Shown one piece after another: positions 41,424 to 62,987 of a DNA stretch of 64,000 nucleotides. This DNA is from Effrenium voratum (Eukaryota; Sar; Dinophyceae; Suessiales; Symbiodiniaceae): NCBI GenBank assembly GCA_963377175.1, contig CAUJNA010002824.1:685475-749474 (forward strand). Reading direction: 5' to 3'. The notes beneath the pieces are model-generated. The model was not told the DNA's origin. It worked only from the letters and a program-made list of their open reading frames with translations, and ran no database searches. Positions within the stretch are counted from its first letter, which is position 1. Each line of letters opens with the position of its first letter. A program made the position numbers and the translations under genes.

Positions 41424-42017
41424 TTACGGGCACCATTCTTTCTTAATTCTTTCTATTATTTTATCACACGTTGTTTCATTATAAATATTACTTCCTATTT
41501 GTTTTCTAAACATTCCCATTATTCCAATTGCACGTGTTATTGTATATCTAAGTTCGTGAGTTTTATACTCATCATTTAAAAACTCATTTAAAAAATCAAA
41601 CAGTATAACATATTTTAAACGTTTAATATTAAAAGAAACGTTATATATTTTTTTTACCATACTATAATACTTAAAAATAAAATCATTATTATATCCTTCG
41701 TCATCACACTCAGTTAGTAAATTATCAAGCCCTTCTATAGTTAAGAAATTATTCATTACAATAAACACAAATATTTCTAAATCATCATCAAGAGTTTCAT
41801 TATTTATAATATCAATATCTTTGTTATTCATATCATCAATTTTGTTTATAATTCTATTGCAATTATTGCATATCATATATTGACAAATATTATTACAAAC
41901 GCCATTTGTAAAACCGCGTTCAATTGGTAATTTGAGCATTTCACAGTCTTTGCATTTATAACTCATAAACCTTTTTTTCAATATATTTTTAGCATCGTGG
42001 ACTGTATCACTCATCAA
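41424..42017 (-). CDS. Cys-rich protein, PLV family member 1
   Basis: 197 residues with two adjacent Met codons at the start. The N-terminus has CKDC, then about 25 residues later ICQYMICNNC, a possible treble-clef or RING-like zinc site. The rest is helical, charged and Ile/Asn-rich. The spacing CxxC...IC(x)nCxxC is shared with the proteins at 48154-49432 and 62518-62987. It has the element's promoter-like motif 22 bp upstream of its start. Function unknown; the zinc site and the shared promoter suggest an early regulatory or host-interaction role, which is inference. It is the outermost gene of the left arm. Confidence 0.75.
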   Translation of the reverse strand: MMSDTVHDAKNILKKRFMSYKCKDCEMLKLPIERGFTNGVCNNICQYMICNNCNRIINKIDDMNNKDIDIINNETLDDDLEIFVFIVMNNFLTIEGLDNLLTECDDEGYNNDFIFKYYSMVKKIYNVSFNIKRLKYVILFDFLNEFLNDEYKTHELRYTITRAIGIMGMFRKQIGSNIYNETTCDKIIERIKKEWCP

Positions 42018-42039
42018 ACTATATAATAGTATTATAAAA

Positions 42040-42066
42040 TATTTCTTTAAATACTTTTTACAAGAA
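42040..42066 (-). promoter_or_regulatory. PLV promoter-like motif, copy 1
   Basis: Minus-strand TTCTTGTAAAAA joined to GTATTTAAAGAAATA, followed by TTTTATAATACTATTATA. The motif ends 22 bp before the ATG of the Cys-rich gene. Same sequence and nearly the same spacing at four other genes. Confidence 0.8.
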
Positions 42067-42142
42067 TTTTAATTTTAAATTAAAATTAAATTAATAAATT
42101 AAAATTATAATTATATTATCATAATTAAATTAAAAATTATTA

Positions 42143-42532
42143 TCATTTACAACTACAAAAACAGAATTTACAAAATGGGATGATATTTTCTATTGTATGA
42201 GTTAATTCATTATCTTTTCGTTGTGCTGTTAGATTTGTAATGATATTACCATTTTTCATATCAATAGTAAAACCACATCCGCAGTAGTTACATTGATTAT
42301 TTATATTATCTAGAAACCATTGAGTATTTACATAACCTTCTCTAGGTATGCTTCTTTTTGCTTTCCTGTCTTGTTCCTTATAATTCAAAATTTTCCTTTC
42401 AAAATAACTCATAATACATTTTTGATTAAATACATCACCAACATCCTTTGTGTATTTGTAAAATTTGACTTTGTTTAAATCACGAGCACGTGTTACCGCT
42501 GTAAAAATCCATTCTGGATAATTCTTTACCAA
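42143..42532 (-). CDS. C-terminal part of the polymerase-helicase gene: helicase end and HNH-like zinc domain
   Basis: Continues the helicase in another frame. It opens with WIFTAVTRARD, the SF1 helicase motif VI region (TRA.. with the Arg). It then carries CNYCGCGF, NLTAQRKDN, HTIENIIPFC and CKFC: a Cys4 zinc ribbon with His/Asn positions as in HNH/treble-clef endonucleases. The start is not a true start: the chain is joined to 42526-43413 across an A5/T5 run (42531-42535), where one base appears to be missing. The gene ends at 42143. A polymerase-helicase-nuclease chain would bring synthesis, unwinding and cleavage together. Nuclease activity is inferred from the motif. Confidence 0.7.
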   Translation of the reverse strand: MVKNYPEWIFTAVTRARDLNKVKFYKYTKDVGDVFNQKCIMSYFERKILNYKEQDRKAKRSIPREGYVNTQWFLDNINNQCNYCGCGFTIDMKNGNIITNLTAQRKDNELTHTIENIIPFCKFCFCSCK

Positions 42533-43413
42533 AAATGATTATAATCAAAAATTGTTATGGTGTCATCAATGCTACTACCTTGAGTAGAATGACATGTAGA
42601 GCAAGAAGAAAATATAAAATTGCTTCTTATTTTAGCAATTTCTACGGATTGTAAAATTTCGGTTTTTACATTTTTTAATGTAAATATTCCAATATGAACT
42701 ATTTTATATTTGAAATTTACATTAAAAACTGATGTTTTAGTTTTAGTATATTCTCTACAAATTAAAAATTCTCCTACTTCATATTCATCTTTTCTATTTT
42801 CTAATTTTCTAATTTCATTTGATACATTTTTACAAGTTGTATTTAAAAATGCTATGTTGTTTTTGGAACTACTTATGTCTGTGGTGTATTCAAAATATTT
42901 TTCAATAATAGTTTTAATTGGTAGTTTATTAATAAAAGTATCATATTTTATATTCTTGAGTTTATCCTTATCTTCCTGTGTGTTAAGTCTCTTACATTCT
43001 TTCAATATTATATTATGTGTAAAAATATTATCTATAATATTGTCAGTGTATAATTCATAGTCTTGAGTATTTGTTATTTCTTGCACTGGTTTTAATTGCT
43101 TGGTGTCTCCTGTTGCTATTATAATTTTGTTGTGCTTATTCTGTTCTACAAATTGTTTTATTCTCCAGTATATATTTAAATTACTAGAATAGATTTCATC
43201 AAATACTATTACATCAAATTCTGTAAAATCAAATGGTTCTAATTTAGCATCTCCATAATGAATACCAAAGAATTTATTTATCGTCATTGCTTCTCCTTCA
43301 AATGCCTGTAATAGTTTATTAGTAGGACAAATAAAAATTACCATATAATTTTTATCAACCATTTTTTGACATATATATGATTTTCCTGTGCCCGGTAGTT
43401 CACCTCTGATCAT
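42526..43413 (-). CDS. SF1 (Pif1/RecD-like) helicase part of the polymerase-helicase gene
   Basis: Walker A GELPGTGKSY at residues 4-13 of the frame, VIVFDEIY (Walker B, motif II), IIIATGDTKQLKPVQ (motif III), and near the C-terminus CHSTQGSS (motif V-like) before the chain passes to 42143-42532. These are superfamily 1 helicase hallmarks; Pif1/RecD2-type is the likely group. The frame is open upstream beyond the apparent first Met, and an A6/T6 run at 43501-43506 is the probable point of a one-base loss joining it to the polymerase frame. It would unwind DNA at the viral fork. Expressed on its own it would have no proper start. Confidence 0.8.
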   Translation of the reverse strand: MIRGELPGTGKSYICQKMVDKNYMVIFICPTNKLLQAFEGEAMTINKFFGIHYGDAKLEPFDFTEFDVIVFDEIYSSNLNIYWRIKQFVEQNKHNKIIIATGDTKQLKPVQEITNTQDYELYTDNIIDNIFTHNIILKECKRLNTQEDKDKLKNIKYDTFINKLPIKTIIEKYFEYTTDISSSKNNIAFLNTTCKNVSNEIRKLENRKDEYEVGEFLICREYTKTKTSVFNVNFKYKIVHIGIFTLKNVKTEILQSVEIAKIRSNFIFSSCSTCHSTQGSSIDDTITIFDYNHFW

Positions 43414-43439
43414 AATAGGATTATTCTGTTTAACAATCT

Positions 43440-44774
43440 CTATAATGTTATCAGTGTCGTATTCATCTTTAATATCAATAGTTTTACTTTCATAAACTGG
43501 TTTTTTATTAATTCATTATTTACAACGTTAAATTTTACCGTAGGTAAATTAATTTCATCTCTCTGCTTTGAAACTTTCCAACCTCCTATATCATCATGAA
43601 ATTCTAATAATTGCTTTGTTTTTTCTTCATTGCATGTATCAATTACAAAAGCATCTGTTTTTACACTATATATATTAATATTATTAGTTATTAGTGTCTT
43701 AAAGTCTTGGTTCATTTTAAAATTGTGATGTTGTAAAAGTAATTCTTTAATATATCGATATCCGTTTCTTAATACTGCCTTATCCTTCAAATTCAATATA
43801 TAATATGATGCCTTTACATCCCATTCATCCTCATCAAATCCATAATATGTTGTAGTTGCACATCCTTCGTCGTCATATTCGGTTATCATTTCAGGACATT
43901 CGCTTACAATATGCGATAATTTATTAATTTTACATCCGTATTCTGTTTGATAATGGACTGCTTCATCAATACTTTTAAATAAAATACGTTGATGTGCTGT
44001 AGCACCTCCTTTTTCTAATAATCCAAAATTTACATTTGCTATTAACTTTTTAATTAGTTTATCTAATGCTTCGTCATGTTCATCTATATTTGTTTGTAAA
44101 AGTTCATTAATAATATTTGTATATTCAACCTTATGAATAAATGAAGGTTGTTTATAATATAAAATATTGATTTTGTGTGTCTTATTCTCATTGATGAATT
44201 CCTTCAAAAACTTGCCATATACTAGATTATATTTTTTGTTGAAAAATAAGTTGTGATTACCACTTATTACAATGTTTCTAAGTGCTTGTTTTAATTCATC
44301 AGGATTTAAAAACAAACTTAAATCATGTGTTTTACGAAATTCTATATAAGTAGCAACGTCAATACCTTTACTATATGCAATAGAATATATCATCTGCTTG
44401 GTGTGTTGATTTTTCTCTATTAGTTCCTTAATGCTGTCCATTGTTGTTTTTAACGGTCTTACATTTGTATCTATAGTTTCAACATAATATAAAGTTAATT
44501 CATGGAGCTCATCTATTTTAATTTCATCGTTGTATTTTTTCCAATGGTCAAACTGGTTAAATACTGGTATTTCCCTAATATTAAAAAAACCTTTAGTAAA
44601 TGCTATATTTACATCTATTTCTGTTTTATAAACTAAATTGATATTACTCAATAATAACCCCGAAGGTGCTATACTTCTTGTTTCATTTAATATTTTAATA
44701 TCAATGTCGTTATAAAAGGATTTATGCGATGACATGAATAAGGATTTATTGAAATTAAACATTGCTTTGTTCAT
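43440..44774 (-). CDS. DNA polymerase family B palm/thumb part of the polymerase-helicase gene
   Basis: In this 444-residue frame, EIDVNIAFT (D54) fits motif A, with downstream IPVFNQFDHW typical of a protist-virus PolB subgroup. KKLIANVNFG (residues 242-251) fits motif B (Kx3Nx3G). YSVKTDAFVID (KTD at 372-374) fits motif C, with K replacing the first Asp of the usual DTD. It lies in the same frame as 44832-46337, separated only by a TGA at 44832-44834, so it is not an independent gene. Upstream exonuclease motifs are not clear. It is expected to replicate the element DNA; the in-frame stop makes this copy doubtful unless read through. Confidence 0.75.
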   Translation of the reverse strand: MNKAMFNFNKSLFMSSHKSFYNDIDIKILNETRSIAPSGLLLSNINLVYKTEIDVNIAFTKGFFNIREIPVFNQFDHWKKYNDEIKIDELHELTLYYVETIDTNVRPLKTTMDSIKELIEKNQHTKQMIYSIAYSKGIDVATYIEFRKTHDLSLFLNPDELKQALRNIVISGNHNLFFNKKYNLVYGKFLKEFINENKTHKINILYYKQPSFIHKVEYTNIINELLQTNIDEHDEALDKLIKKLIANVNFGLLEKGGATAHQRILFKSIDEAVHYQTEYGCKINKLSHIVSECPEMITEYDDEGCATTTYYGFDEDEWDVKASYYILNLKDKAVLRNGYRYIKELLLQHHNFKMNQDFKTLITNNINIYSVKTDAFVIDTCNEEKTKQLLEFHDDIGGWKVSKQRDEINLPTVKFNVVNNELIKNQFMKVKLLILKMNTTLITL

Positions 44775-44831
44775 ATTGTTGTATGTAGTTTCATTGCTAA
44801 CTGCAATCCATCCATCACCGGAAGATTTAAT

Positions 44832-46337
44832 TCAATTTTGAGTTTTTATGATATATGTTATCTTGTTCAATCTTAATCTTATTTCATCAATAATACCTGT
44901 GTATTTAATTCTGGGTTCATATCCAATATTCAACAACTGGAATAATAATTCTGCCAAATTATTATTTTCAGGCACTAAATATATTTCCTTTGTTTTATCA
45001 TCAGTTTTAATTTTAAGTATATCATCTATACATTTAATCATTTTGTATTGTGGCGGTTCTTCTCTTTCATTTATATAATAATCAGTGTGTGCCTTTATAG
45101 TGGGTAGTTTTGTTATTAATTGCTTCTGTTGTATCTTACTTAAATCATGGTTTAATGTGTAAATATGGCTATTCTTCACCATTGCGTAAAACGTTTTTAT
45201 ATGGTGGTTTCTCTTTTCTGGTTCATACTTATAAATAACTTCATTTACAAAATTGAAAATTCTAACTTGAATATTAAACTTTTTGAATACTGCTTCCATT
45301 TCTTGAATGGTTGCTCCTACCTCCTTAAAATCATCCCTACCTATGATTTCAATAATTTTGTCTCTGGTTAGTCTGTTGCGGGTTTTTTCATTCATGATCG
45401 TATCACTGTAAAAATCAGTTAATGAATTTATCCAACATTCATTGTCTATATAATTACCTTTCTTGATTGCCTTTTGTATAGTGCCCTCACTCATTTTAAT
45501 AGGTGTGTGTATATATTTATAATAAATTGATACATTTGTAGCATCCCTTAAGTTTTCGGTTAATATATTAAACTTTTCGCCGTTTTTATTCATCACTTCC
45601 ACTGATAATATTTTGACACATTCAATATCATTATAAAATTCTGTCATTTCTCTATATATGTCATTAAAATCTTCATCTGTTGTTAATAGATTTATTGTGT
45701 CAGTAAATTCGTCATTTGGTGTATCATTATTGCTTCCATATCGTATATCCGAGTTGCCTAAGTATTTAAATATCCTTTTTTTTTTAATAATATCTGTTGA
45801 AATTGTTCGTGCTTGAATTGTAACATTAAGATTATCAAAAGTTTTTGTGTAAAAATTCATTAGTCTGTGTTTAAAAGCAGGTTTAGATTTTATCTTTGTA
45901 TCTTTGTTTACCTCTCTTGCTGTATACAACATAAATTGAATAAAATAAGTTTTTGTTTTATATCTCGCGCTCAACTCATTACCTTTTGTTTTCCTATACT
46001 CTATACCTTTTGTTTTCCTATATTGTTTAATCCCTGCTTCATCTTCTTCTTCGTTTTTTGCTCTTGCTTCTGCCATTCTTTCATTTAATGGTTTTGTATC
46101 CTTGATTTTCTTGATATTATCCTTGTATTTTTGAATTGTTTTGTCATACACCTTTTTGTCTGTAGATGTTAAACCCTTGATATAATTTTCTGCCGTTGCT
46201 ACATTTGATAATTTTCTTTCAGTGTAAAGTTTAATAATCTCATCAACCCTTTTTTTAGTTGCATTATTTGCGCTCTGTGTTGAATTTCTTTTGAGTTTGT
46301 TTAACTCGTTTATATTACGCTGTAAAAACTTACTCAT
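44832..46337 (-). CDS. N-terminal part of the DNA polymerase B-helicase gene
   Basis: Codes for 501 residues and ends at TGA in the same frame as the polymerase palm. The first ~150 residues are Lys/Arg-rich coiled coil. The middle and C-terminus contain NECWINSLTDFY, VGATIQEMEAVFKKF and AMVKNSHIYTLN, which resemble the region preceding the palm in DNA polymerases B of protist viruses and transposons. No canonical DxE exonuclease motif is evident. The start at 46337 is supported by the promoter-like motif ending 29 bp upstream. The whole composite gene (46337-42143) would give a protein near 1,400 residues, the largest of the element. Confidence 0.7.
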   Translation of the reverse strand: MSKFLQRNINELNKLKRNSTQSANNATKKRVDEIIKLYTERKLSNVATAENYIKGLTSTDKKVYDKTIQKYKDNIKKIKDTKPLNERMAEARAKNEEEDEAGIKQYRKTKGIEYRKTKGNELSARYKTKTYFIQFMLYTAREVNKDTKIKSKPAFKHRLMNFYTKTFDNLNVTIQARTISTDIIKKKRIFKYLGNSDIRYGSNNDTPNDEFTDTINLLTTDEDFNDIYREMTEFYNDIECVKILSVEVMNKNGEKFNILTENLRDATNVSIYYKYIHTPIKMSEGTIQKAIKKGNYIDNECWINSLTDFYSDTIMNEKTRNRLTRDKIIEIIGRDDFKEVGATIQEMEAVFKKFNIQVRIFNFVNEVIYKYEPEKRNHHIKTFYAMVKNSHIYTLNHDLSKIQQKQLITKLPTIKAHTDYYINEREEPPQYKMIKCIDDILKIKTDDKTKEIYLVPENNNLAELLFQLLNIGYEPRIKYTGIIDEIRLRLNKITYIIKTQN

Positions 46338-46471: not shown

Positions 46472-47158
46472 TTATTGGTTCATCAATTCAATGTGTTTCT
46501 TTGTTTTATTATGTTTTGTCATTCTGCACTTTTTGACTTTACATTGGCAGGTTTCACATAGTATTTCTATTTGACTATATGCTTTGTCCATTTCTTTTTT
46601 TCTCTCCTTGTTATTCTCTCTCCACCTCTTGCTATATTCAGTATTGTATTCAGGGTTTTTGTCTTTCCATTCCTTAACATATGCTTTCCTTTTTTCTGGG
46701 TCTTCCCTATATCTTTGCCGGTCTTGTTCCCTTACCCTTTCTAAATTGTTGTCTCTAAATTCCTTTTCTTTTTGTCTTATGATTTCTCTGTTGTTTTCTC
46801 TGTATTCTGCAATTTTGCCCTTTTGCTCTTCTACATTATCTTGATACCAGGTTTTAGCATTTCTTCCCGCTACTTTTTGATTTAGTGTTCCTATTGTTCT
46901 TATCCATTCTCCTTCTCTTGCTGTCAGTTCCTCCTTGCTATTGCAGGGGTAGTGCTCAATTAATTCAATATAGAAATTGTCCTTACCGTGTTTCAACATA
47001 TGCTGATAAATTCTGTAGTTTTGCTTGGTTTCGCACTTGCTTCTATGTTTTGCCATTCTCTGCGTCAGTTTTTCAACGGTTGAACCTATGTAGATTTCAT
47101 CATCTAATGAATTCAATATTTTGTAAATTTTTGATTTTTGATATTTACTATCAGTCAT
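46472..47158 (-). CDS. GIY-YIG endonuclease with C-terminal zinc finger (left arm)
   Basis: 228 residues. The catalytic domain has KIYKILN (Ile11-Tyr12 as the GIY-type strand), IYIGST (YIG at 23-25), Arg34, Glu81 in EGEWI and Asn92, the expected order of GIY-YIG nucleases. A long Arg/Glu/Asn coiled coil follows (about 100-190), then CETC...H....H, a C2H2-like finger. Such enzymes nick or cut DNA and are common in PLVs and large DNA viruses. Its paralogue is at 54771-55334 with the same layout. A variant of the promoter-like motif (TATAAAGATATA) lies shortly upstream. It could be a homing-type or a replication nuclease. Confidence 0.88.
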   Translation of the reverse strand: MTDSKYQKSKIYKILNSLDDEIYIGSTVEKLTQRMAKHRSKCETKQNYRIYQHMLKHGKDNFYIELIEHYPCNSKEELTAREGEWIRTIGTLNQKVAGRNAKTWYQDNVEEQKGKIAEYRENNREIIRQKEKEFRDNNLERVREQDRQRYREDPEKRKAYVKEWKDKNPEYNTEYSKRWRENNKERKKEMDKAYSQIEILCETCQCKVKKCRMTKHNKTKKHIELMNQ

Positions 47159-47205: not shown

Positions 47206-48123
47206 TCAAACTTTTAATAACTCAAAGCGAAGATAAGGGCGAGTATGTCCTTTGACATAAAAATAAGTTTGCCCTAATTTAGTTTCTATTCTTTCGACTT
47301 CATATATTTGACTGCTCCAATTTGACACCCTCTCTTTATCTGTAATTCCTTTCTTTTTGAATATTTTAACTTTATTAGAAATGTTAATTTCAGGATATTT
47401 ACGGGTTCTAGTTGCTTCGGTTGCCATTTTCATTTTTACTTTATAATTGTTTTTCTCCTTCAATGCTTCCGCTGGTGTCATTCCTATGCTTGAATGTTCC
47501 ATTTTATTATTATAAGTTAGTAATATTTCAAAATTATAATCTATCCATTGTATATTTTCCTTTCCTTCTTTTTCATCTTTTTCAACCCTTTTATATAACA
47601 TATCTTTGTAGGTGCGTATAAAACGTTCTGCAAAATTAGGATGTCCTCTTGTGCGGTATAATTCTATTACTTCTTCTTTGAAATAATCTTCAACTGTTTT
47701 ATTATATAAACTGCCTTCCTCGTCGCTATAAATAATTTCTGGTTTGCCTTTCATTTTCTGCATTCCTTCCATAACTCCCGCTAATATGTCAGGCGGTTGT
47801 TTTGATTTAATAGGTATTACTGTAGAATATCTGGTAAATATATCAATTAAAACCATCCCTACTTTAAACTTTTGATTGGGTATGTCATTAATAAAAAATA
47901 GATCTAATTGAAATTCAAAGTATGGATGTGGAGAAATAAATGAATTGTTGCCTCTTAATTTCTTCTTCTGTTCTATGTTCTTTTGAAACCATTCTTTAAC
48001 ATCATTTAAGGTTATGCTTTGTTCCTTTTGTTTAGCATCCTTATAGGTTGTTGCGATACTTCCGTATCCTGATTTATCATAATACATTCTACTAATTATA
48101 TCATTTCTATTAATATTTGCCAT
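47206..48123 (-). CDS. DDE integrase (retroviral/Polinton type)
   Basis: 305 residues. The rve core shows D74 in FQLDLFF, D134 in IYSDEEGSL and E167 in NFAERFIRTYK: the DDE triad with 59 and 32 residues between. HSSIGMTPAEAL after the core is typical for this superfamily. The C-terminus has a small beta-rich chromo/SH3-like part (WSSQIYEVERI). No clear N-terminal HHCC finger. It would insert the linear element DNA into host DNA, consistent with an endogenous copy. The frame is intact. It lies between the GIY-YIG gene and the Cys-rich gene with short spacers (47 and 30 bp). Confidence 0.9.
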   Translation of the reverse strand: MANINRNDIISRMYYDKSGYGSIATTYKDAKQKEQSITLNDVKEWFQKNIEQKKKLRGNNSFISPHPYFEFQLDLFFINDIPNQKFKVGMVLIDIFTRYSTVIPIKSKQPPDILAGVMEGMQKMKGKPEIIYSDEEGSLYNKTVEDYFKEEVIELYRTRGHPNFAERFIRTYKDMLYKRVEKDEKEGKENIQWIDYNFEILLTYNNKMEHSSIGMTPAEALKEKNNYKVKMKMATEATRTRKYPEINISNKVKIFKKKGITDKERVSNWSSQIYEVERIETKLGQTYFYVKGHTRPYLRFELLKV

Positions 48124-48153
48124 ATTAATAAAGGTGATATTTTTTTTAACATT

Positions 48154-49432
<1,279 letters not shown>

Positions 49433-49486: not shown

Positions 49487-49546
49487 ATATTTTTATAGTA
49501 AAATTTCTATATATTTTTATTTTTTCCTAAATTTATGGTTTCAAAT

Positions 49547-49754
49547 CCCCCCACAGGGGGAATGAACCCCCCACACAGGGGGGAATGAACCCCCCACACA
49601 GGGGGGAATGAACCCCCCACACAGGGGGGAATGAACCCCCCACACAGGGGGGAACAGCAAAACAGCACCTAATTTCAAGATTTTCAGGCAAACCCCCCGC
49701 TCTGGGGGGAATGACCCCCCCGCTCTGGGGGGAATGAACCCCCCGCTCTGGGGG
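49547..49754. repeat. GC-rich hairpin array in an A/T-rich intergenic space
   Basis: A 23-bp unit AATGAACCCCCCACACAGGGG plus GG is repeated four times after a partial unit (49547-49652). After a 38-bp spacer comes a second cluster of three units with loop GCTCT instead of ACACA (49691-49754). Each unit folds into a perfect 6-bp G/C stem with a 5-nt loop. It lies between the stop of the 49854-50135 gene and the promoter of the next gene, so it could end or insulate transcription. Confidence 0.92.
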
Positions 49755-49853: not shown

Positions 49854-50135
49854 CTATTCAACTGTTATAATTTTATATGTTTGCGCCTTATATTTTCTGG
49901 GTTTTGTATTCTGTAAATCTTCTGGTTTATTTTCATAATCAATATCTTTTAAATTAATTTCTCCATTTTCTGCCATCTTGTCTAATTTCTTTCTTCTGTG
50001 AAATCTTATAGCACTTGCCCTTTTGGTGTCCATAAAGTCCTTTTCGTGTCTCCTTCTTTGATAATATAATCTGTTATATAGTGCCAGTTGTTCCTTTATT
50101 TGTTCCAGCGTCATATCTTCAGGTTTAATACTCAT
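49854..50135 (-). CDS. Small basic coiled-coil protein of unknown function
   Basis: 93 residues. Starts MSIKPEDMTLEQIKEQLA, a helix with heptad character, then a basic segment (YYQRRRHEKDF, HRRKKLDKM) and a charged tail. No family recognised. A promoter-like motif ends 26 bp before the ATG, grouping it with the polymerase and the Cys-rich genes. It could bind nucleic acid; this is inference from charge. Confidence 0.7.
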   Translation of the reverse strand: MSIKPEDMTLEQIKEQLALYNRLYYQRRRHEKDFMDTKRASAIRFHRRKKLDKMAENGEINLKDIDYENKPEDLQNTKPRKYKAQTYKIITVE

Positions 50136-53000: not shown

Positions 53001-53855
53001 TCAATTATCTAATTGAAAGAGAATGCTAAAAGAAATGGGTACGCCGTGAAAATCAATTAATTCGTTTCTTGAAGTTGTTATTCTAAAGTGTAGTCTCTTA
53101 ATATTTTTACCGCCTACATCAATAAAATCTGCATATATGGGCGCTGTAAAATCTGTTATAACTCCGCCAAGTTGTTGATTCATTTGAACTTTTTTAATTA
53201 CTGAACTGCTGAAATTATTAGGCGCTGAATATTTATAATCGCTTAATTGAGGACAATTTATGTATATATTCTGAAAAGGAACTAAATTAAAGTATCCACT
53301 TAACCAAGATGTCGCAGGTTCATAGGCAATATAATTACTTAATAAATAATTGATAGCTTTTGGTCTCAAGTTGTCATATTCAAACTGTCCCCTGTTCCAT
53401 TCACCATTTACATAAGTTTCTAATTCTTCATCTGTAGGTATTTTGATTTTGTAATTTAGAGGGTCATTTAATTTAAGTTCCATTTTGCGCTCGCTTTGTC
53501 CATATACTGTTAAGAATAAGTCAGGTACAATATCATTAAATGCCGCGTTTAATTCTGATTGTATTTTAAATGATAATTGATTGGCATAATAAATTTCACC
53601 GGATACATCAACGGCAGTGATTCTCAATAAGACATTGGAACTATTATACAACATAATATAGAAGCGTTCGTAAAACCCTTTCTCTGTTGTATAAAACGGA
53701 GTGCTGAATGAACACTCTGTCACGAACATTTTTGTTCTTGGTGGAATTTCAAAGTTTTGATCAAGTTCTATAATAAAGTCACTGGTAGAATTGCTTTCTG
53801 ATAATCTGTAAGCACTATCAACATAGATTTGTTTATATGTTAATCTGTCACTCAT
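53001..53855 (-). CDS. Minor capsid (penton) protein of the PLV
   Basis: 284 residues from the Met at 53855 (MSDRLTYKQIYVDSAYR); an in-frame Met five codons upstream is less likely. Features seen in PLV/virophage minor capsid proteins: an N-terminal IYVDSAYR strand, FIIELDQNFEIPPRTKMFV early in the chain, and a beta-rich body ending with a GVPISFSILFQL strand, as in a single jelly-roll. It would form the capsid vertices. It is transcribed away from the lipase gene, with a 102-bp divergent intergenic region containing a 29-bp palindrome. Confidence 0.78.
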   Translation of the reverse strand: MSDRLTYKQIYVDSAYRLSESNSTSDFIIELDQNFEIPPRTKMFVTECSFSTPFYTTEKGFYERFYIMLYNSSNVLLRITAVDVSGEIYYANQLSFKIQSELNAAFNDIVPDLFLTVYGQSERKMELKLNDPLNYKIKIPTDEELETYVNGEWNRGQFEYDNLRPKAINYLLSNYIAYEPATSWLSGYFNLVPFQNIYINCPQLSDYKYSAPNNFSSSVIKKVQMNQQLGGVITDFTAPIYADFIDVGGKNIKRLHFRITTSRNELIDFHGVPISFSILFQLDN

Positions 53856-53957: not shown

Positions 53958-54734
53958 ATGATTGGACGACAATTATTATTAGGTGCTATTGAAGGCAGGA
54001 CGCCTACACAAATGATGGCAGGTGTAGCAAGTGATAAGGCATATACGGCAGGTAAGGATTTAATAGAAGATGTATTTTTTAACCATAAAAAGAAATTGGA
54101 AGACAATGTAGGAGGTTTCAATAAACATTTTGATAAGCAAATAATGAAACATAAAACACGTTATGCCGAAGAAATCAATGTTCAAAATAAAAATAAGATT
54201 GATGATGTTAAGGGTTTAGACGCCGCGTATTCAAATGTAAATGGAATAACAAGAATAGGCAACACTTTATATATTGGCGGCACTGGCGCTAAAACGGGAC
54301 TAAATCACAAAGTCAATGATGTAATCGCAGATCTGTTTTTTATTCCTACTCATAATGTTCAATTAAGCGAAAGGTATAAAGACGCAATGGAAGAATTAAG
54401 GAAAAATCCAGATGTGAATAGAATTGTTGGTCACAGTCTCGCGGGAGCAGTGGCACGTGAAATAAACAGGAGAAGCGGAAATAGATATGCTACTACAGTG
54501 TATTCATCGCCGTTAATTTCAGGAGCACATCAACCAAAAGACCCACGAAATCTTAAATTTCGTAATCGCGGTGATGTAATCGCGGCATTTGACGACGCGG
54601 CAATAACAGGAGAAATAGAAAGCCCTAACTTATTAGATAAACACGGCTATCAGAATTGGGAAGGAAATGGACTTACTACAATAAATCCTACTACCAATAT
54701 AGACACAGGCTTTGATCCAAATGATGTAAAATAA
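53958..54734 (+). CDS. Lipase (class 3-like alpha/beta hydrolase)
   Basis: 258 residues. The nucleophile elbow GHSLAG places Ser160 as catalytic; Asp206 (RNRGDVIAAF) and His229 (DKHGYQNWE) complete a plausible triad. LYIGGTGA... with a following DVIADL fits the strand before the elbow. The N-terminal ~80 residues are basic and helical with no signal peptide. Class 3 lipases recur in PLVs and may help virions cross host membranes. It sits next to the capsid genes, which fits a virion-associated role (inference). The frame is intact. Confidence 0.85.
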   Translation: MIGRQLLLGAIEGRTPTQMMAGVASDKAYTAGKDLIEDVFFNHKKKLEDNVGGFNKHFDKQIMKHKTRYAEEINVQNKNKIDDVKGLDAAYSNVNGITRIGNTLYIGGTGAKTGLNHKVNDVIADLFFIPTHNVQLSERYKDAMEELRKNPDVNRIVGHSLAGAVAREINRRSGNRYATTVYSSPLISGAHQPKDPRNLKFRNRGDVIAAFDDAAITGEIESPNLLDKHGYQNWEGNGLTTINPTTNIDTGFDPNDVK

Positions 54735-54770: not shown

Positions 54771-55334
54771 ATGGATTATTCCAAAGCAAAAATTTACAAA
54801 ATACTAAATACAATTGATGATGATGTATACATCGGTGCTACATGCCAACCATTTTCAAAGCGAATGGCGAAACATAGGGACTGTAGAAATGGAAAATGCA
54901 AAAAACATTATAAACTCTATCAAAAAATGAATAATTTAGGAATTGATAATTTCTACATCGAACTAATCAAAGAGACACCTTGTGATAATGCTGAACAACT
55001 ACGAGCAATTGAAGGAGAATATATAAGACAAGATGCAACACTAAATAGCAGAATAGAAGGACGAACAAAGCAACAATATATAATTGACAACAAGGACAAA
55101 AAACGAGAATATGATCAGATACGACGAGCAGAAAAGGGCGAAGAATTAAAACAACAAAAGAAAGAATACTATAAACAAAACAAGGAACACTGCAACAACA
55201 AAAGTCGTGAAAGTTACCAGAAAGTAAGAGAGCAAAAAGAAACATGCGAAGTATGTGGCGTTTCCTATATTCCTTGGAATCGGAAAAAGCATTTGGCAAG
55301 TAAAAGACACCAACAAGCAATGGAACAACTTTAA
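54771..55334 (+). CDS. GIY-YIG endonuclease with C-terminal zinc finger (right arm)
   Basis: 187 residues. KIYKILN, VYIGAT (Y20-I21-G22), Arg31, Glu81 in EGEYI and Asn92 line up with the left-arm paralogue (46472-47158) at the same distances. A shorter Lys/Glu/Gln coiled coil follows, then CEVC...H.....H. The right-arm copy is about 40 residues shorter in the linker. Upstream, TATTTAAAGATAAA resembles the core of the promoter-like motif. Two copies of one nuclease on opposite arms suggest intragenomic duplication or independent gain. Frame intact. Confidence 0.88.
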   Translation: MDYSKAKIYKILNTIDDDVYIGATCQPFSKRMAKHRDCRNGKCKKHYKLYQKMNNLGIDNFYIELIKETPCDNAEQLRAIEGEYIRQDATLNSRIEGRTKQQYIIDNKDKKREYDQIRRAEKGEELKQQKKEYYKQNKEHCNNKSRESYQKVREQKETCEVCGVSYIPWNRKKHLASKRHQQAMEQL

Positions 55335-55336: not shown

Positions 55337-55373
55337 ATTATTAATATTATTACTTCTACATAATATTAATAAT
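55337..55373. terminator. A/T hairpin after the GIY-YIG gene
   Basis: ATTATTAATATTA (55337-55349) pairs perfectly with 55361-55373 around an 11-nt loop, starting 3 bp after the stop codon. It covers the first possible ATG of the next frame (55372), favouring the internal Met at 55402 as the start. Confidence 0.55.
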
Positions 55374-55401
55374 GAAATATATATATATATATAACTTATA
55401 T

Positions 55402-55845
55402 ATGAGTATTGATGCTGAGAAATGGGACAACGATATTGAATATGCTTATAAGAAAATGATAGAGCGAGAGAAAAAGAAAGAATACAACATATCAAATAGT
55501 AAATACGAATGTCATTGTGGCAAGGAAGTATTGAATAAAGATAAGGAAGAGCACGAAAGCAATGATTTAAATCATTTATACTACAGAAAAGGTAATATTG
55601 AAGGACTTATAATAGGCATGTATAGTGAAATTATTAATTATGAAAATGATTACTTAAAATTACATCCAGAAAATAACAAAATACATTATACAGATTATAG
55701 TAGAGTTGATTATACCGACTTTTTAAAAGAACAAGAAGAAAAGAAAATTCCATTAGATGAAGATGATTTAAGTTATTTGTATAAGTATAGAGACGAATTA
55801 GAAGATTGTATAAAGCGTATAACTGAACTAACATTATCTCAATAA
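55402..55845 (+). CDS. Small acidic protein with a CxC...H.....H motif, unknown function
   Basis: 147 residues from MSIDAEKWDND (an upstream in-frame Met at 55372 lies in a hairpin and codes a Tyr/Ile-rich stretch unlikely to be real). A charged N-terminal helix, YECHCGKEVLNKDKEEHESND (possible zinc site), then a Tyr/Asp/Glu-rich C-terminal half. No family recognised. It stands 12 bp before the next gene. Confidence 0.65.
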   Translation: MSIDAEKWDNDIEYAYKKMIEREKKKEYNISNSKYECHCGKEVLNKDKEEHESNDLNHLYYRKGNIEGLIIGMYSEIINYENDYLKLHPENNKIHYTDYSRVDYTDFLKEQEEKKIPLDEDDLSYLYKYRDELEDCIKRITELTLSQ

Positions 55846-56103: not shown

Positions 56104-57705
56104 ATGGATAATATAATTGCAGAAAGTGAAACTACAATGATTAACTCGTTAAATTTTGGACTTCCAGAAACAGCACAATACATCACAGACAGAAGACACG
56201 TTAATTATTTTCCATCGGGTAGTAATGTTTATAATCCAAATGCAGGAAACAAAAATATTAGATTTCATATATCAGGAGAAGACAACACATATATTGATTT
56301 ATCAAGTATTCGTTTATTTGCAAATCTTCAAAACACCGACGGAACACGAAGCCATTTTTTACGACCGTTAGGAAATTTGTCATCCTTCTTCAGTCGTTAT
56401 AGATGCACAGTAGGCGGACAACAGGTTCAGGATATTATTGAATATAATAGACATTGCGAATTGTATAATTCTTTTAAAAGTCAAGATGCCAGAGATATGG
56501 ACGATTTAGAAGGTGGCGCTAATCCTCGTTGGGATGATGACTGGCGACACACATATGCTACTGGATTGGCAGAATTTATTGATGTCAATACACGAACCGA
56601 TCCCACTGCCGACCCTGAGGCAGTTGCAATTTCAACTACAAAAGACCATAACAATTGGGGAGACTTAACATCGCGATATACTCGCCATTCGGTAGCAGGA
56701 ATTCCCGGCGCTAATGGTTATATGCGATTAGGACATAAACCGGTATGCGGACTGTTAGAAAGCAATTATTATTTACCTCTTCGTTATGCTCCCCTTGAAT
56801 TGGAATTTACAATTGTATCAAACGAACATATACCAGTAGTTACGCCTTTTACAGTAACTGATGTCAACACTCAAAATGATGCCAAAGGCTATTATTTCAC
56901 AACAGGAGACACCAGCACCAAGTGGGAATTAAATAATGTAATCCTACGAGCAGAGGTAATACAATTGGACAACACGGTCAATAATAATATAGTGAAACAT
57001 TTGTTAGAGGGTCAAAGTTTGAAATTAGTATTTCCAATGTATCACACTATGACACAATCATTCAACGCGGGAGGAAATGAAATTAATATGAACATTGTTA
57101 AATCCGCTTCTAAATTAAATGGTTGCTTCATTACATTGTATCGTGCGCCAAGAGCAGGTGTAGATGCTGATAATGATAATTACTACAGACACGATAATTA
57201 TATTTATAAGAGATGGAATTACTTTTACAACCCTATGATTAATTCAAGAATCTTTGACGGTTTTAACCCAGATGCTGTTGACGGCAGTGGCAATCCTACC
57301 CGTGCGCAATTCCGCGGCAAAGGCTTTCAAAATTCAGATTTAAATTTATCTTGGCAATTACAAATTAATAATAAGAAATATCCAGAGTTTGAATGCCAGA
57401 GCCTCGCCGAGAGTGCCTACTACCTCCGAAGAACATTACACTATTTGAACCCTGATCAAGACGCCTTTAGCATTTCATATAAACGCTACAGAGAAGACAA
57501 GTTCGTTATTGGGATTTCATTTGAGAAAATGGCAGACACTAATTTTACTGGACAGAATACTAAAATGGGTGGTTTACTCGTTTTTAAATTGAAAGGGTCT
57601 AACAGAGCACTGACAGATAATGAAGATGTGCGAGAATTATTTGTGCATATGATTTCGGAGTCTGTTCTGGAATTACGCGAAAGTGGGAGCGTGCTTTACG
57701 ATTAA
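56104..57705 (+). CDS. Major capsid protein (double jelly-roll)
   Basis: 533 residues. It opens with FGLPETAQYITDRRHVNYF and PSGSNVYNP, the start typical of PLV major capsid proteins, followed by IRFHISGEDNTYIDLSS, a first jelly-roll with GGQQVQDI, and a second half with LEFTIV, GCFITLYRA and YPEFECQSLAESAYYL. The length suits the 500-600-residue PLV type. It builds the icosahedral capsid with the minor capsid protein at 53001-53855. Frame intact and long, which argues that the insertion is fairly recent. Identification rests on recognisable sequence pattern and context (adjacent ATPase, penton, lipase). Confidence 0.85.
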   Translation: MDNIIAESETTMINSLNFGLPETAQYITDRRHVNYFPSGSNVYNPNAGNKNIRFHISGEDNTYIDLSSIRLFANLQNTDGTRSHFLRPLGNLSSFFSRYRCTVGGQQVQDIIEYNRHCELYNSFKSQDARDMDDLEGGANPRWDDDWRHTYATGLAEFIDVNTRTDPTADPEAVAISTTKDHNNWGDLTSRYTRHSVAGIPGANGYMRLGHKPVCGLLESNYYLPLRYAPLELEFTIVSNEHIPVVTPFTVTDVNTQNDAKGYYFTTGDTSTKWELNNVILRAEVIQLDNTVNNNIVKHLLEGQSLKLVFPMYHTMTQSFNAGGNEINMNIVKSASKLNGCFITLYRAPRAGVDADNDNYYRHDNYIYKRWNYFYNPMINSRIFDGFNPDAVDGSGNPTRAQFRGKGFQNSDLNLSWQLQINNKKYPEFECQSLAESAYYLRRTLHYLNPDQDAFSISYKRYREDKFVIGISFEKMADTNFTGQNTKMGGLLVFKLKGSNRALTDNEDVRELFVHMISESVLELRESGSVLYD

Positions 57706-57731: not shown

Positions 57732-58049
57732 ATGTATCGTCATCACAAGAAGAATGCGAAGAAAAATAAAGGTAAGATATTTTTACAATCCTCACAAATT
57801 AAATATAGTCCATTTGATTTAAAAGATAATGAATATCTAAAACATCTACACGAACAAATGAAGTTAATAAACTCACAGGAAGCATCAGTAGCATTTAGAA
57901 AACACATTCAAGAAGGACACGCCAGAGCAAATTATCAAAATGAATTAGACAGATTAACAATGGAACTACACCGCCCAAATCTACCACATAGCACATTAGA
58001 GCACCTACAAAAAAGAATTGAAGAGTTGAAAAAATTAACATTTAATTAA
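57732..58049 (+). CDS. Small helical protein, likely virion-associated
   Basis: 105 residues. Basic N-terminus (YRHHKKNAKKNKGK), then a helical coiled-coil body with HLHEQMKLINSQEASVAF and LEHLQKRIEELKKL. No family recognised. It follows the capsid gene after 26 bp, so probably a late structural or assembly factor (inference from place). Confidence 0.6.
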   Translation: MYRHHKKNAKKNKGKIFLQSSQIKYSPFDLKDNEYLKHLHEQMKLINSQEASVAFRKHIQEGHARANYQNELDRLTMELHRPNLPHSTLEHLQKRIEELKKLTFN

Positions 58050-58090: not shown

Positions 58091-59092
58091 ATGACAACAA
58101 CCCAAAGTCTAGAATTAATAAATCCATATGCAAAATTTGGATTGAAACGACGACCTACTTATGAAGAAATCGCTAACCTAATAGGCGAGAAAGAACAATT
58201 AACAGGAAAACTGCCTAACCGAGATGCTACATTCTTCAAAGCAAGTCCTCAAGGAAGTTTTTTTGATGGAAGCGACCACTTAGAATTATTGAAAGACCAA
58301 CAGATGAGAATATTAGACAGGCAGATGAGAGAGATAATGATGAAACAGGAAGCGCGCAGAAACGGGCACACTTATGCAGTGCATAGGATGAATGCTGACA
58401 CACCATTAACCAGAAACGCAGAAGCAATAGAAGATGAATATGATTTTTCAACACCACAACAACCGGCAAGGCAACACGAAGGGATGGTAGATACAAGACT
58501 GCAAGAACTAGCAACAGCAACAAAAGAAAGAGTAAATGAAGTGAGTCAAGCAATGGCATCAAATTTAAGAGATATGGGCGGAACAATTTTTCAAAGAATG
58601 CTAGGCAATAGACAATCGACACCATCAGCACCAACACAAGCACCGCCAACAAGAGCAGACGATATTCAATCAATGGCATTAGAAGATGTTGAATTACCAC
58701 AGGAAGCAGTAGATGACAGTTTTTATGGATCAGCGCCACCAATTCAACAAGCATCAGGAGCATCATCACAGCAACCGCCGCCATTACCGAGAATGCCATT
58801 ATTCAAAACAACAATAGATAATACTATTAGTCCCGCTTACTGGAAAGACAACCTTAATTTAACAGTAAATGATATTAAATTTCAATTTTATTTAAGAGGA
58901 ATTCAAGTGCCAGAAGAAAGCGAAATACAGGAAGAATTGAAACACAAAGGCAGAGGCAAGGCGAGAACATACAAAGAATATTTAGTAGATATGATTTTAG
59001 ATACTATTGATAATGGCGGGTGGATAGTAAATTTAGGCAAAAGTAGAATAGAAGAACTCAAGGCAAGTTTTAAAGGTAAAGGAAAGAAATAA
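58091..59092 (+). CDS. Modular protein with a conserved-looking C-terminal domain, unknown function
   Basis: 333 residues. N-terminal part (MTTTQSLELINPYAKFG, RRPTYEEIANLI) and a helix-rich segment to about 120, then Ala/Gln/Pro-rich low complexity (about 170-235). A compact C-terminal domain has ISPAYWKDNLNLTVNDIKF, YLRGIQVPEE, YKEYLVDMILD and GWIVNLGKSRIEELK. It ends in a basic tail (FKGKGKK). It lies among virion genes. I do not know the family; a scaffolding or internal virion protein is possible. A long open frame on the opposite strand (58236-58799) is a shadow. Confidence 0.7.
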   Translation: MTTTQSLELINPYAKFGLKRRPTYEEIANLIGEKEQLTGKLPNRDATFFKASPQGSFFDGSDHLELLKDQQMRILDRQMREIMMKQEARRNGHTYAVHRMNADTPLTRNAEAIEDEYDFSTPQQPARQHEGMVDTRLQELATATKERVNEVSQAMASNLRDMGGTIFQRMLGNRQSTPSAPTQAPPTRADDIQSMALEDVELPQEAVDDSFYGSAPPIQQASGASSQQPPPLPRMPLFKTTIDNTISPAYWKDNLNLTVNDIKFQFYLRGIQVPEESEIQEELKHKGRGKARTYKEYLVDMILDTIDNGGWIVNLGKSRIEELKASFKGKGKK

Positions 59093-59106: not shown

Positions 59107-59913
59107 ATGATAATATTAACTAAAAACATACTGAAAAGAAAGAAGCAAAAGTTCAATGATAAATATGATCACGACAGTTTTTCAATACATAACCTAACAA
59201 AACCAAACACACCAACAACAATACAACCACCGAAAATGATGAAAAAGGGCATACCGAGAGAATTTATTGACATTGCAACCAATACAGATACAATCGCCAC
59301 AGAAACCAGAGAGACTCAAGAAAAGTTATTCAATGATGCAAATCAACCATTAAATATGACATTTGAAGCGTTTAAGGTAAAGGAAAACCAGGACAATATG
59401 TTTAAAATAATGCTTAAAAACTTTTGGCACAACACACACAAGAGAAATGAACCAACAAGAACACAAGCAACACAAACACTGACAAACCAACGCGACGCGA
59501 TGGTGTCAGCCTTTACTAAAATGCTCGACAACAACAAACCGCCAGAACCACCACCAAAGAAACCACCAGATGAGGATGACAGCGATGAAGAAGAAAAGAA
59601 GTTCAAACTGACAAAAATGATAGAAATAATGCTACACCACGGCGCTACAGTAGCAGATATCATATTAAACTTATCGCACAGCGCAATTGCAACAACTATA
59701 AATATCGCAGATTTAGTCAATCAAATAACAGCAGGAAATGCACAAGCTAGCAGTAGTTCTTCTAATGAAATTATTAGTGTTCATAGTTCTCCCCCTGTTA
59801 CTGTCCATAGTTCTTCATCTGAAAGTCCAACAGAAATACCAGCACCAACTGAAGACGAAGAAGAAGAAGAAGAAAACCAACATTTCAATTTTGAAAAATT
59901 AAAATCTAAATAA
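59107..59913 (+). CDS. Acidic-tailed protein with a short hydrophobic segment, unknown function
   Basis: 268 residues. A basic start (TKNILKRKKQKFNDKYDHD), a Thr/Asn-rich middle, a Pro-rich EPPPKKPPDEDDSDEEE linker near 150-165, a helix of moderate hydrophobicity (MIEIMLHHGATVADIILNLS) and a Ser-rich, then poly-Glu C-terminus. Composition suggests disorder. 15 bp after the previous gene, so probably co-expressed. No family recognised. Confidence 0.65.
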   Translation: MIILTKNILKRKKQKFNDKYDHDSFSIHNLTKPNTPTTIQPPKMMKKGIPREFIDIATNTDTIATETRETQEKLFNDANQPLNMTFEAFKVKENQDNMFKIMLKNFWHNTHKRNEPTRTQATQTLTNQRDAMVSAFTKMLDNNKPPEPPPKKPPDEDDSDEEEKKFKLTKMIEIMLHHGATVADIILNLSHSAIATTINIADLVNQITAGNAQASSSSSNEIISVHSSPPVTVHSSSSESPTEIPAPTEDEEEEEENQHFNFEKLKSK

Positions 59914-60397: not shown

Positions 60398-60427
60398 ATT
60401 ATTATATTATATTAAATTAGAATATCT

Positions 60428-61192
60428 TTATTCATCATTCGTAATTTGAAACGCCTGTTCAAATCTGATATGAAACATTTTGTTAATGTCTTTAGCATTC
60501 ATATTCACGTAGAAGAAACTATAAGGTGCGTCATTCACGGCTTGATGATACATATCTAATAATTGCTGTTTATCAACAATGGCGCTATTTTCTTCAATAA
60601 AACTCATTAACTCACTTGCATTTTTCAACCTAAAAATATATAATGAACTGGCATTTAAACGAATGATAGGCGCTAAAACATTATATTTTTGTGTTGAACA
60701 AATCACACTTACTGCATCGTGCCTGCCTCTTGTAAATAATCCATGTAATAATTTACTATATCTAACAAATTTAGGGTCGTCTGCGTGGTCATCTATCACA
60801 ATTAATATTGAATGCAGTTTCTTTATCTTTTTGGATTTCATATAATTAATTATTTTCTTCTGTCTTTCAATTACATTTTCTAAATCACTTGGATTATAAT
60901 TATCAAAATATATTTGTTCTTTTTCATCATCTACGTGCAATTCATCCCTGATGTATTTTTTAACTTCTGTAAAAGTTGGGTCATTATGAACGCTGGGTGA
61001 AAATATAAATATTCTTGCAAATGAATTTCTATAAACATTTAAAATAAGATTCTGAACTAAAACTGTTTTGCCTCCCGTCGAACTCGCAACTATAATACTT
61101 CTAAATGGTAATTTTGGCACGTGCTCATATTTAGATTGTTTGAATTCATATTCAGTTATGTTTATTGGTTTTATTATTGGGACATCTGTCAT
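60428..61192 (-). CDS. A32/FtsK-HerA-type genome-packaging ATPase
   Basis: 254 residues from the Met at 61192 (MTDVPIIKPI). The frame is open 72 codons further upstream, but that part crosses the structured locus and looks non-coding. Walker A is ASSTGGKT (Lys42), Walker B ILIVIDDHAD (Asp134, Asp135), a downstream STQ (Gln168) fits the sensor position, and LFTRGRH offers Arg residues for the finger. This is the packaging ATPase found with double-jelly-roll capsids in PLVs, virophages and NCLDVs; it pumps DNA into the capsid. Frame intact. Confidence 0.88.
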   Translation of the reverse strand: MTDVPIIKPINITEYEFKQSKYEHVPKLPFRSIIVASSTGGKTVLVQNLILNVYRNSFARIFIFSPSVHNDPTFTEVKKYIRDELHVDDEKEQIYFDNYNPSDLENVIERQKKIINYMKSKKIKKLHSILIVIDDHADDPKFVRYSKLLHGLFTRGRHDAVSVICSTQKYNVLAPIIRLNASSLYIFRLKNASELMSFIEENSAIVDKQQLLDMYHQAVNDAPYSFFYVNMNAKDINKMFHIRFEQAFQITNDE

Positions 61193-61488: not shown

Positions 61489-61495
61489 ATTTAAT

Positions 61496-61690
61496 ATGGA
61501 TAGAAGTTATTCAGATTATATTGATATAATAGATGAAGTAGAGAATATAGAACAAGTAATAATAACTGACAATAAAATTAAAAAATGCTGTTATTATACA
61601 TTAGAATTAATAAAATTAGGAATACAATATATCAAAAATAAAAATGTAAATATTAATATAAATGGGAAAAAAGAAAAACAAAAAGAATAA
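61496..61690 (+). CDS. Small acidic/helical protein, unknown function
   Basis: 64 residues from MDRSYSDYIDIIDEVENIEQ; the frame opens at 61409 but the upstream part runs through the palindrome and is unlikely to be translated. A helix with KKCCYYTLELIKLGIQYIKN and a Lys-rich tail. It overlaps the start of the next gene by 29 bp in another frame. No family recognised. Confidence 0.5.
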   Translation: MDRSYSDYIDIIDEVENIEQVIITDNKIKKCCYYTLELIKLGIQYIKNKNVNININGKKEKQKE

Positions 61691-62027
61691 AACGGATACT
61701 ACAGTTTCTTCAACAGATGAAGACAAAGAAGAAATTGTTAAAGAAACAGCACTAACCGAGTTTGAGTGTCCTATGTGTAAAAAGATGTTAGAAATGAAAA
61801 ATGAAATAGAAATACAAAAGAAAGGAAATTGTAAATGTTCGTGTATTCCGACAAATTTCAAATTGAGTAAAAACGATAAGAAAATGAATATTGATAAAAC
61901 CAAAGACAGTATAAATCTGGAAACGGATGTTCATAATATAACTTTTAAATGGGGGAGGCATGCGTCGCCATCCGATAATGGTGATAACGAAGCACAGGAA
62001 ACTATTAAACAAATGATGAAAATTTAG
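61662..62027 (+). CDS. Small protein with a Cys4 zinc-type motif
   Basis: 121 residues. Lys-rich start (GKKKNKKNKTDTT), acidic segment, then FECPMCKKMLEMK and, 19 residues after the first pair, CKCSC: a likely Cys4 zinc site. The C-terminal part has ITFKWGRHASPSDN. Unknown function. The start overlaps the previous gene, so the two may be translated from one transcript. Confidence 0.6.
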   Translation: MGKKKNKKNKTDTTVSSTDEDKEEIVKETALTEFECPMCKKMLEMKNEIEIQKKGNCKCSCIPTNFKLSKNDKKMNIDKTKDSINLETDVHNITFKWGRHASPSDNGDNEAQETIKQMMKI

Positions 62028-62114
62028 TACTTAAAGAGTAGATTTTACATTAAATCAATTTTATAAATAAATAAATATTTAAATAAATAATTATATAAAT
62101 AAATATATATAGAA

Positions 62115-62453
62115 ATGTCTGAAGTTGAAAGTGATGTTATTGTTGAACTATCAAAGAAGATAATGACGGTTAGTAAAAATGTTAAACTGTTGTACGAGAT
62201 GATAAAAACTATTGACCAGAAACTTGATGCAAAGGCATACGAACCAAAAAACAACAATGAAGAGAAGGAAAAGATTGATAAGATCTTTGAAAAGAAGGGG
62301 ATAGGCAGACCCAGCGGTGATTATGACACGAAGCGTAAAAAATATTGTGATATGTTAAATAAGGGACAAATCAAAAGTCCAAAGGAACAAACATTAGAAT
62401 ACTATAAGATTATTAAGGGCGATGATGGTAAATATGTAATTGTTGAAAATTAA
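62115..62453 (+). CDS. Coiled-coil protein with an AT-hook-like motif
   Basis: 112 residues. A N-terminal coiled coil (VELSKKIMTVSKNVKLLYEM), then KKGIGRPSGDYDTKRKKY, where GRP flanked by basic residues recalls an AT-hook, and a C-terminal YYKIIKGDDGKYVIVEN strand pair. It could bind the A/T-rich element DNA (inference). ACTTAAAGAGTAGA about 70 bp upstream is a weak variant of the promoter-like motif. Confidence 0.6.
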   Translation: MSEVESDVIVELSKKIMTVSKNVKLLYEMIKTIDQKLDAKAYEPKNNNEEKEKIDKIFEKKGIGRPSGDYDTKRKKYCDMLNKGQIKSPKEQTLEYYKIIKGDDGKYVIVEN

Positions 62454-62464
62454 AATATAAACAA

Positions 62465-62492
62465 TTCTTGTAACAAAGTATTTAAAGAAATA
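62465..62492 (+). promoter_or_regulatory. PLV promoter-like motif, copy 5
   Basis: TTCTTGTAACAAA joined to GTATTTAAAGAAATA on the + strand, ending 25 bp before the ATG at 62518. The only clear copy in the right arm. Confidence 0.82.
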
Positions 62493-62517
62493 CTAATTAT
62501 ATATATTAATAGAAATA

Positions 62518-62987
62518 ATGCTATTCAATTATAACAACTGTAAAAACTGTAAAATCAATAAAAGGGATACATTCACTTTAAGACAGAAAATACCAATTGA
62601 AATTTGTTATATTATTAGTAATTATTACCCACATTGCGCCAAGTGTTCTAATATGATATCACAGGAAGAACAGTTTATTCATAGAATAAAAGCACTATAT
62701 GGAGATGGTTTAAGCAAAATAGAATATCAATTACGCTGGTTTTCAAAGCACAACAACAAACCTCTCACATATGATTTTATATTGGATGATGACAGGGTAT
62801 TGAAGAAAGAAATTGACAAATTATTTGACGCGGTTGATGTGAAAAAAAGCTTTACAGATAAACAGTGCCGATTAGCCATAAAATCATTTGCTAAAAAAAA
62901 CTTGCTCCTCATTCATTGTGTGCTTGAAAATTGTTACAACAAACAAAATGCAAGACGAGTTCCAGATTATTGTATTGAATATTTAAT
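62518..62987 (+). CDS. Cys-rich protein, PLV family member 3 (truncated by the gap)
   Basis: At least 156 residues before the N run. NCKNCKINKR, then about 20 residues later EICYIISNYYPHCAKC: the zinc-type pattern shared with 41424-42017 and 48154-49432. The rest is helical with WFSKHNNKPLTYDFILDDD and KKSFTDKQCRLAIKSFAKKN. Any translated sequence beyond 62987 across the N run is meaningless, since the following DNA belongs to the retroelement. Function unknown. Confidence 0.7.

Follow-up and report, generated by a model that had tools for sequence, protein, structure and literature searches.

We ask whether a long A/T-rich segment in the genome of Effrenium voratum is an integrated virus, and whether that virus recently had, or still has, the ability to form virions. 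The segment lies in a stretch of 64,000 nucleotides (contig CAUJNA010002824.1, positions 685,475 to 749,474; hereafter the window), in which an earlier reading of the sequence (the original prediction) had proposed an endogenous Polinton-like virus (PLV) with a nearly full gene set. We find that the segment is very probably a copy of a high-copy endogenous PLV of about 21-22 kb in a dinoflagellate-like genome. That the PLV is integrated and carries a morphogenetic gene set, as had been proposed, is well supported by its left terminus, the target-site duplications (TSDs) and terminal inverted repeats (TIRs) of sister copies, a double-jelly-roll (DJR)-type fold, a packaging ATPase and purifying selection. 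The kind of virus is already known, as dinoflagellate PLVs in thousands of copies are described in PMC10120064; new here are the exact ends, the 5-bp TSDs, the replicase layout and the selection estimates for a dinoflagellate PLV family.

Ends and target sites of the element

The left end was mapped by searching window positions 40400-42400 in the organism's own assembly (1.156 Gb, 3699 contigs) and scoring the best 40 of 1233 candidates: the window itself, one more place on its contig and another 38. Matches in all 38 other places start at query positions 617-625 (window 41016-41024), and none of these places matches the window's flank. The PLV therefore begins at 41024, with the letters AGTTAGAC, and not at 41424 as predicted, 400 bases further right. 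This end lies at a continuous step into the A/T-rich block, which has 23-37% GC per kb (19% in the kb with a poly-T tract) versus 48% in the kb on the left. The A/T-rich segment and its mid-GC left flank were thus correctly recognized by the original prediction, whereas the mid-GC stretch to the right duplicates the left flank after a scaffold gap; the right end of the window copy is therefore unseen and falls outside the window.

Repeats within the window alone did not reveal the termini; sister copies did. These were the eight best matches to the major capsid protein (MCP) after the window itself. Their matches to the window were listed only when at least 150 bases long, and the comparison of middle stretches omitted matches below 80 bases and poly-T. 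The left TIR (41024-41425, plus strand) has an inverted match at the right end of the eight fetched copies, partial in one. Both ends are readable in five of the eight (the left is missing in C3120, the right in C3324 and both in C657), and these five span 21,070 to 22,275 bp. Each of the five is flanked by a perfect 5-bp TSD and none by a 6-bp one; the five target sites differ, and the five copies are therefore separate insertions. Inverted repeats measure 0.37-0.48 kb in four of them and form a rearranged pair in the fifth, and in one sister copy they are identical at 471 of 472 positions. The TIRs that help to define a PLV are accordingly found in the sister copies, the right TIR of the window copy lying beyond the gap.

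Endogenous PLVs of the Dino group, as described by Bellas et al. (2023, PMC10120064), live in dinoflagellate hosts at very high MCP copy number (2,535 in Polarella glacialis), occupy insertions 15-30 kb long that often have TIRs and a GC step, and can show apparent gene breaks that are assembly artefacts. Our element resembles them in host, copy number, size, TIRs, GC step and breaks, and is set beside them by description only. Four of the MCP relatives listed, at 64-71% identity, carry the name Skav, which we take to denote Fugacium/S. kawagutii. The S. kawagutii reference polinton described in PMC12721341 spans 21.2 kb, and the likeness to our element consists in this size and in the Skav-named relatives. 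According to PMC11071213, Maverick elements are enriched at chromatin-domain boundaries in Breviolum.

Virion genes, selection and replicase

The predicted model of the MCP (56104-57705, plus strand) matches double-jelly-roll capsids, as expected of a PLV, at a predicted local distance difference test (pLDDT) value of 52. A total of 364 relatives were found at E <= 0.01 (120 listed), while a sequence search gave no PDB match. The frame is stop-free in 80 of 81 scored places (the best 81 of 4127 first-look candidates). Pooled ratios of nonsynonymous to synonymous substitution rates (dN/dS), calculated from 28 sequences (the window's own plus those of 27 among the remaining 80 scored places; 378 pairs), amount to 0.11-0.17 in each of five dS classes. 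The A32-type genome-packaging ATPase that PLVs encode is likewise present (60428-61192, minus strand; Pox_A32 1.2e-11, 45 bits against a cut-off of 22.8), and both calls of the original prediction are confirmed. The ATPase gene is whole in five of the eight sister copies and sometimes broken in the others. A candidate penton or minor capsid protein (53001-53855, minus strand) has 85 relatives; its alignment found no credible relative among PDB profiles, the one match being unrelated (E 0.41).

For genes other than the MCP, dN/dS was pooled over copies with at least 90% coverage and at least 75% identity per gene (3 to 7 besides the window). The lowest values were obtained for the ATPase (0.044), the fibre (0.072), a 112-aa open reading frame (ORF; 0.083), the candidate penton (0.115), the helicase (0.145) and the lipase (0.20), followed by the N-terminal region of the replicase (0.26), a 185-aa ORF (0.27), the integrase (0.29), a 333-aa ORF (0.33), the palm (0.35) and a Cys-rich ORF (0.40). 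Judging from these alignments, the capsid genes of the closest copies are under purifying selection; that virion genes are constrained among little-diverged copies favours working viruses over other relics as their source.

The retroviral-type (rve/DDE) integrase (47206-48123, minus strand) is matched by Pfam rve (0.0047) and NCBIfam IS481 (1.3e-9), both below cut-off, and by solved integrases at 0.035-0.18; all these scores are weak, and the 5-bp TSDs of the sister copies stand beside them on the side of the predicted DDE integrase. The gene is sometimes broken among sister copies. The fibre gene is split by one frame change into a C-terminal part with an S74 chaperone domain (50196-51758, minus strand; Peptidase_S74 1.4e-10) and an N-terminal part (51691-52293, minus strand), so that the predicted S74 domain is borne out and the single gene is not. 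Both parts share one frame in seven of the eight sister copies, the gene is full length in three, and the split is common to one copy. A putative lipase (53958-54734, plus strand) would have the predicted function by its GHSLAG motif, with a best Pfam E of 0.1 (Abhydrolase_6). The integrase, capsid, candidate penton, putative lipase and ATPase frames are all open in the window.

The absence of a maturation protease had been regarded as notable. Pfam scans of 20 ORFs, which a diverged protein (including one of Ulp1 type) could escape, gave none above cut-off. None of the PLVs studied by Yutin et al. 2015 encodes one (PMC4642659); such a lack would be normal for PLVs, and we rejected it as a peculiarity of this element.

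Annotated as one PolB-helicase, the replicase gene of the window consists of four minus-strand ORFs, separated by one in-frame stop and two frame changes. An N-terminal region with a putative vOTU-like Cys/His pair (44835-46337) lies one stop codon from, and in the same frame as, a protein-primed family B palm region in which no exonuclease was recognized (43443-44831). The SF1 helicase core (42529-43512; Viral_helicase1 6.4e-6, above the Pfam cut-off) follows in a changed frame and is fused to the palm in sister copies; the C-terminal helicase region with a Cys-rich end (42146-42538) is again in a changed frame. The gene is a single frame of 1394-1412 aa in three of the eight sister copies and interrupted in five, and it is open over at least 1360 aa (1367-1412), stop-free, in 22 of 92 scored places. 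The polymerase domain has no match among Pfam, PHROG or NCBIfam models; its predicted fold, compared with phi29 polymerase, is phi29-like. The palm ORF aligns to phi29 from residue 126 on and is preceded by a region of 501 aa, which has no Pfam match to OTU; the ECW...HIY pair is found in all eight sister copies. A PDB profile search with the polymerase alignment returned only RecD/TraI-type helicases and chance matches, and an IMG/VR scan with the palm alignment found one 30% relative, encoded on a 66-kb contig. A polymerase without a large internal part was considered and dropped given the stop-to-stop frames and the sister copies. Read from N- to C-terminus, the replicase of sister copies is one long chain comprising a Cys/His region, a phi29-like palm and an SF1 helicase. 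The helicase profile and the palm of the original annotation hold, but in the window not the single gene. Together with the rve integrase, for which profiles are weak and TSDs are seen in five of five copies, this protein-primed PolB (pPolB) gives the combination characteristic of Polintons (Mavericks).

The palm fused to a C-terminal SF1 helicase recalls the Tlr1-like fusion replicases (pPolB-S1H) described by Koonin et al. (PMC11071308), with N-terminal region, Cys/His pair, palm and helicase in one chain; the PLV protein differs in having about 1,400 aa and a Cys-rich C-terminus, whereas Tlr1 has a GIY-YIG tail (PMC11071308). OmPLV of Oxyrrhis marina is, like our element, an endogenous dinoflagellate PLV with an SF1 helicase fused to pPolB, but by its description in PMC12721341 has the helicase first, a retained exonuclease, a tyrosine recombinase and no TSDs. 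Twelve Symbiodinium PLVs carry an HNH unit as an N-terminal fusion to the helicase (PMC12220804). Many such elements are described by Bellas et al. (PMC10120064) as being without a detectable polymerase and as having helicases fused to an unknown domain. Here a domain unseen by Pfam, PHROGs and NCBIfam is predicted to fold as a phi29-like polymerase ahead of the helicase, comparable to the Tlr1-like proteins in PMC11071308.

Taken as a whole, the nearly full gene set holds for the MCP, ATPase, fibre, GIY-YIG and helicase genes, with a weak integrase, a lipase recognized by motif, and an interrupted replicase and fibre. Recent virion-forming ability, also part of the original prediction, is compatible with the family (inverted repeats identical at 471 of 472 positions in one sister copy, low dN/dS) and is not assignable to the window copy, because its replicase and fibre frames are interrupted as assembled.

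Scaffold duplication and competing explanations

At 62988-63087 a scaffold gap of 100 N hides the right TIR and the right junction. Beyond it, 63088-64000 (plus strand) is an exact repeat of the left flank (28153-29065, 100% over 913 bp), and a stretch that shares the last 75 bases of the window and extends beyond them matches window 28991-36991 at 100%, even in the simple repeats; over the 8839 bases compared (window 28153-36991) there are zero differences. Being identical throughout to the window from 28153 on, the DNA beyond the gap was rejected as a host junction. A further occurrence of the left junction lies 34,935 bases on (99% over 2001 bases), and therefore the scaffold carries the left flank and the left part of the insertion twice. 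This duplication is either false or very recent.

The piece taken from the second version is 98.1% identical to window 42376-43266 but as much as 99.7% identical to other copies. In an alignment of nine versions, from which copy C657 (90% identical) was left out, private substitutions number 7 in the window, none in the second version and 0-6 in the other seven; private indel columns number 10, none and 0-3, respectively. The second version is one open frame through all 300 codons (901 bases), the longest in the window being 246. A second MCP or palm was not listed on contig C2822 among the best 81 (MCP) and 92 (palm) scored candidates. Because the second version is open across one frame change and private changes are over-represented in the window, the breaks could have arisen in assembly. 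Consensus errors in the window version, of a kind that Bellas et al. (PMC10120064) described for such elements, are the simplest reading of this excess, the other breaks lying beyond the comparison. Some or all of the damage to replicase and fibre may stem from consensus error, the element being a high-copy repeat. The scaffold thereby offers its own control, by which broken frames and flanks in such elements are not to be taken at face value.

A bolder reading, which is less likely than not, is that the window copy is one of many near-identical recent insertions of a virus population still passing through virions in a dinoflagellate host, with selection keeping the capsid set and with homing nucleases and small cassettes exchanged between copies. 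In the life cycle that we propose for the PLV as such, the N-terminal terminal-protein/vOTU part would prime replication of the linear genome at the inverted repeats and then be cleaved off, and the palm and helicase would copy the PLV genome. The ATPase would package this genome in a capsid of DJR and penton proteins that bears an S74-processed fibre, the lipase would serve entry, and the rve integrase would join the linear ends to scattered sites in the host. As passengers, the GIY-YIG genes would come and go at intergenic sites. Several points weigh against an integrated PLV with this gene set: the right end of the window copy and its own TSD are unseen, the MCP model is of low confidence and VIA covers its N-terminal half only, and the integrase profile scores are weak. 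Taking the copies for dN/dS from the best protein matches (81 scored out of 4127 first-look candidates) biases the sample towards intact genes, and penton, vOTU and lipase are assigned by relatives, motif or position.

It is conceivable, though short of an even chance, that the window copy has truly decayed by real mutations after insertion in replicase and fibre, leaving a provirus that is dead or dependent on sister copies. The in-frame stop and both frame changes of the replicase, like the frame change of the fibre gene, would then be genuine; five of eight sister copies likewise have an interrupted replicase, and one has the fibre split. Against this, the second version of the site is without private changes and open over 901 bases, and the flank repeat shows no difference despite the private changes in the element, one break being comparable; these private changes could also be those of an allele. 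A self-copying transposon spreading within the nucleus only, with capsid genes as relics, would account for the scattered insertions with TSDs and would agree with IMG/VR pattern scans, which gave no relative with the MCP or with its alignment; we consider it unlikely, as MCP, penton, ATPase and fibre rank towards the constrained end of the genes measured. Hardly credible is a free contaminating virus genome misjoined to host sequence. The GC step is indeed sharp and one side is joined only via the N gap that leads into the repeated flank, but the left junction is continuous, the 38 other scored places have the same element end and none the window's flank, and TSDs are found in all five end-readable copies.

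Passenger genes, smaller genes and neighbouring relics

Both predicted GIY-YIG nucleases were recovered. The gene at 46472-47158 (minus strand; Pfam GIY-YIG 3.8e-8; TIGR01453 1.8e-13, below its cut-off) is of the free-standing homing type and is absent in seven of the eight sister copies; in three GIY-YIG-free copies with both sides on one stretch, the flanking matches are 36 bases apart. The second gene (54771-55334, plus strand; TIGR01453 3.1e-7, below its cut-off) was not found in six of the eight copies, and the other two have a 43% relative at its site. Rfam gave nothing at gathering scores in 38-63 kb, including any group I intron around the GIY-YIG genes. Both genes behave like free-standing homing nucleases, a known PLV feature according to PMC12220804.

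A Cys-rich ORF (48154-49335, minus strand) ends in a C-terminal part formed by a tract of 333 bases (48246-48578, 96% T, read as poly-lysine) that does not appear in sister copies. Across the middle stretches of all eight, A or T runs reach no more than 7-10 bases, and in three copies with the gene retained about 8 bases separate the two sides of the site. The tract is possibly an assembly artefact. In three other copies the equivalent of 48146-49429 is swapped for about 580 bp of other sequence, and the lipase of one copy is 99% and then 71% identical to that of the window. This replacement and the mosaic lipase can be taken as signs of cassette exchange among copies.

Minus-strand genes further include a small Cys-rich ORF of 196 aa that varies among copies (41424-42014), a conserved ORF of 93 aa that is full length in all eight copies (49854-50135) and the Pro-rich 185-aa ORF with a CxxC motif (52329-52886). 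On the plus strand lie ORFs of 157 aa (55372-55845, in six of eight copies), 105 aa (57732-58049, in seven), 333 aa (58091-59092, in seven) and 268 aa (59107-59913, in all eight, cut by stretch ends), two small ORFs of 121 and 112 aa (61662-62453) and a Cys-rich ORF cut by the N gap (62518-62987), for which the stretches of the eight sister copies hold no full match. The dinoflagellate spliced-leader sequence does not occur in the window at up to 3 mismatches. Within the A/T-rich element, 49542-49754 holds two tandem arrays with a 23-bp period and perfect C6-ACACA-G6 and C6-GCTCT-G6 hairpins; an exact-pattern scan found C6-N5-G6 hairpin arrays in one of the eight sister copies.

A separate A/T-rich relic with broken frames (38700-40050, plus strand) ends about 1 kb to the left of the PLV. 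It holds an Endonuclease_7-like finger (1.4e-6) and what is, by motif, presumably a piece of an exonuclease-type pPolB, and it apparently derives from a different Polinton-like element; an IMG/VR pattern scan with the 39.6-40.0 kb fragment gave no relative. Further to the left, 27605-29805 contains ORFs that resemble those of retroelements, include a weak rve integrase core (0.0018, below cut-off) and are probably of Copia type; retrotransposons are known near such PLV insertions.

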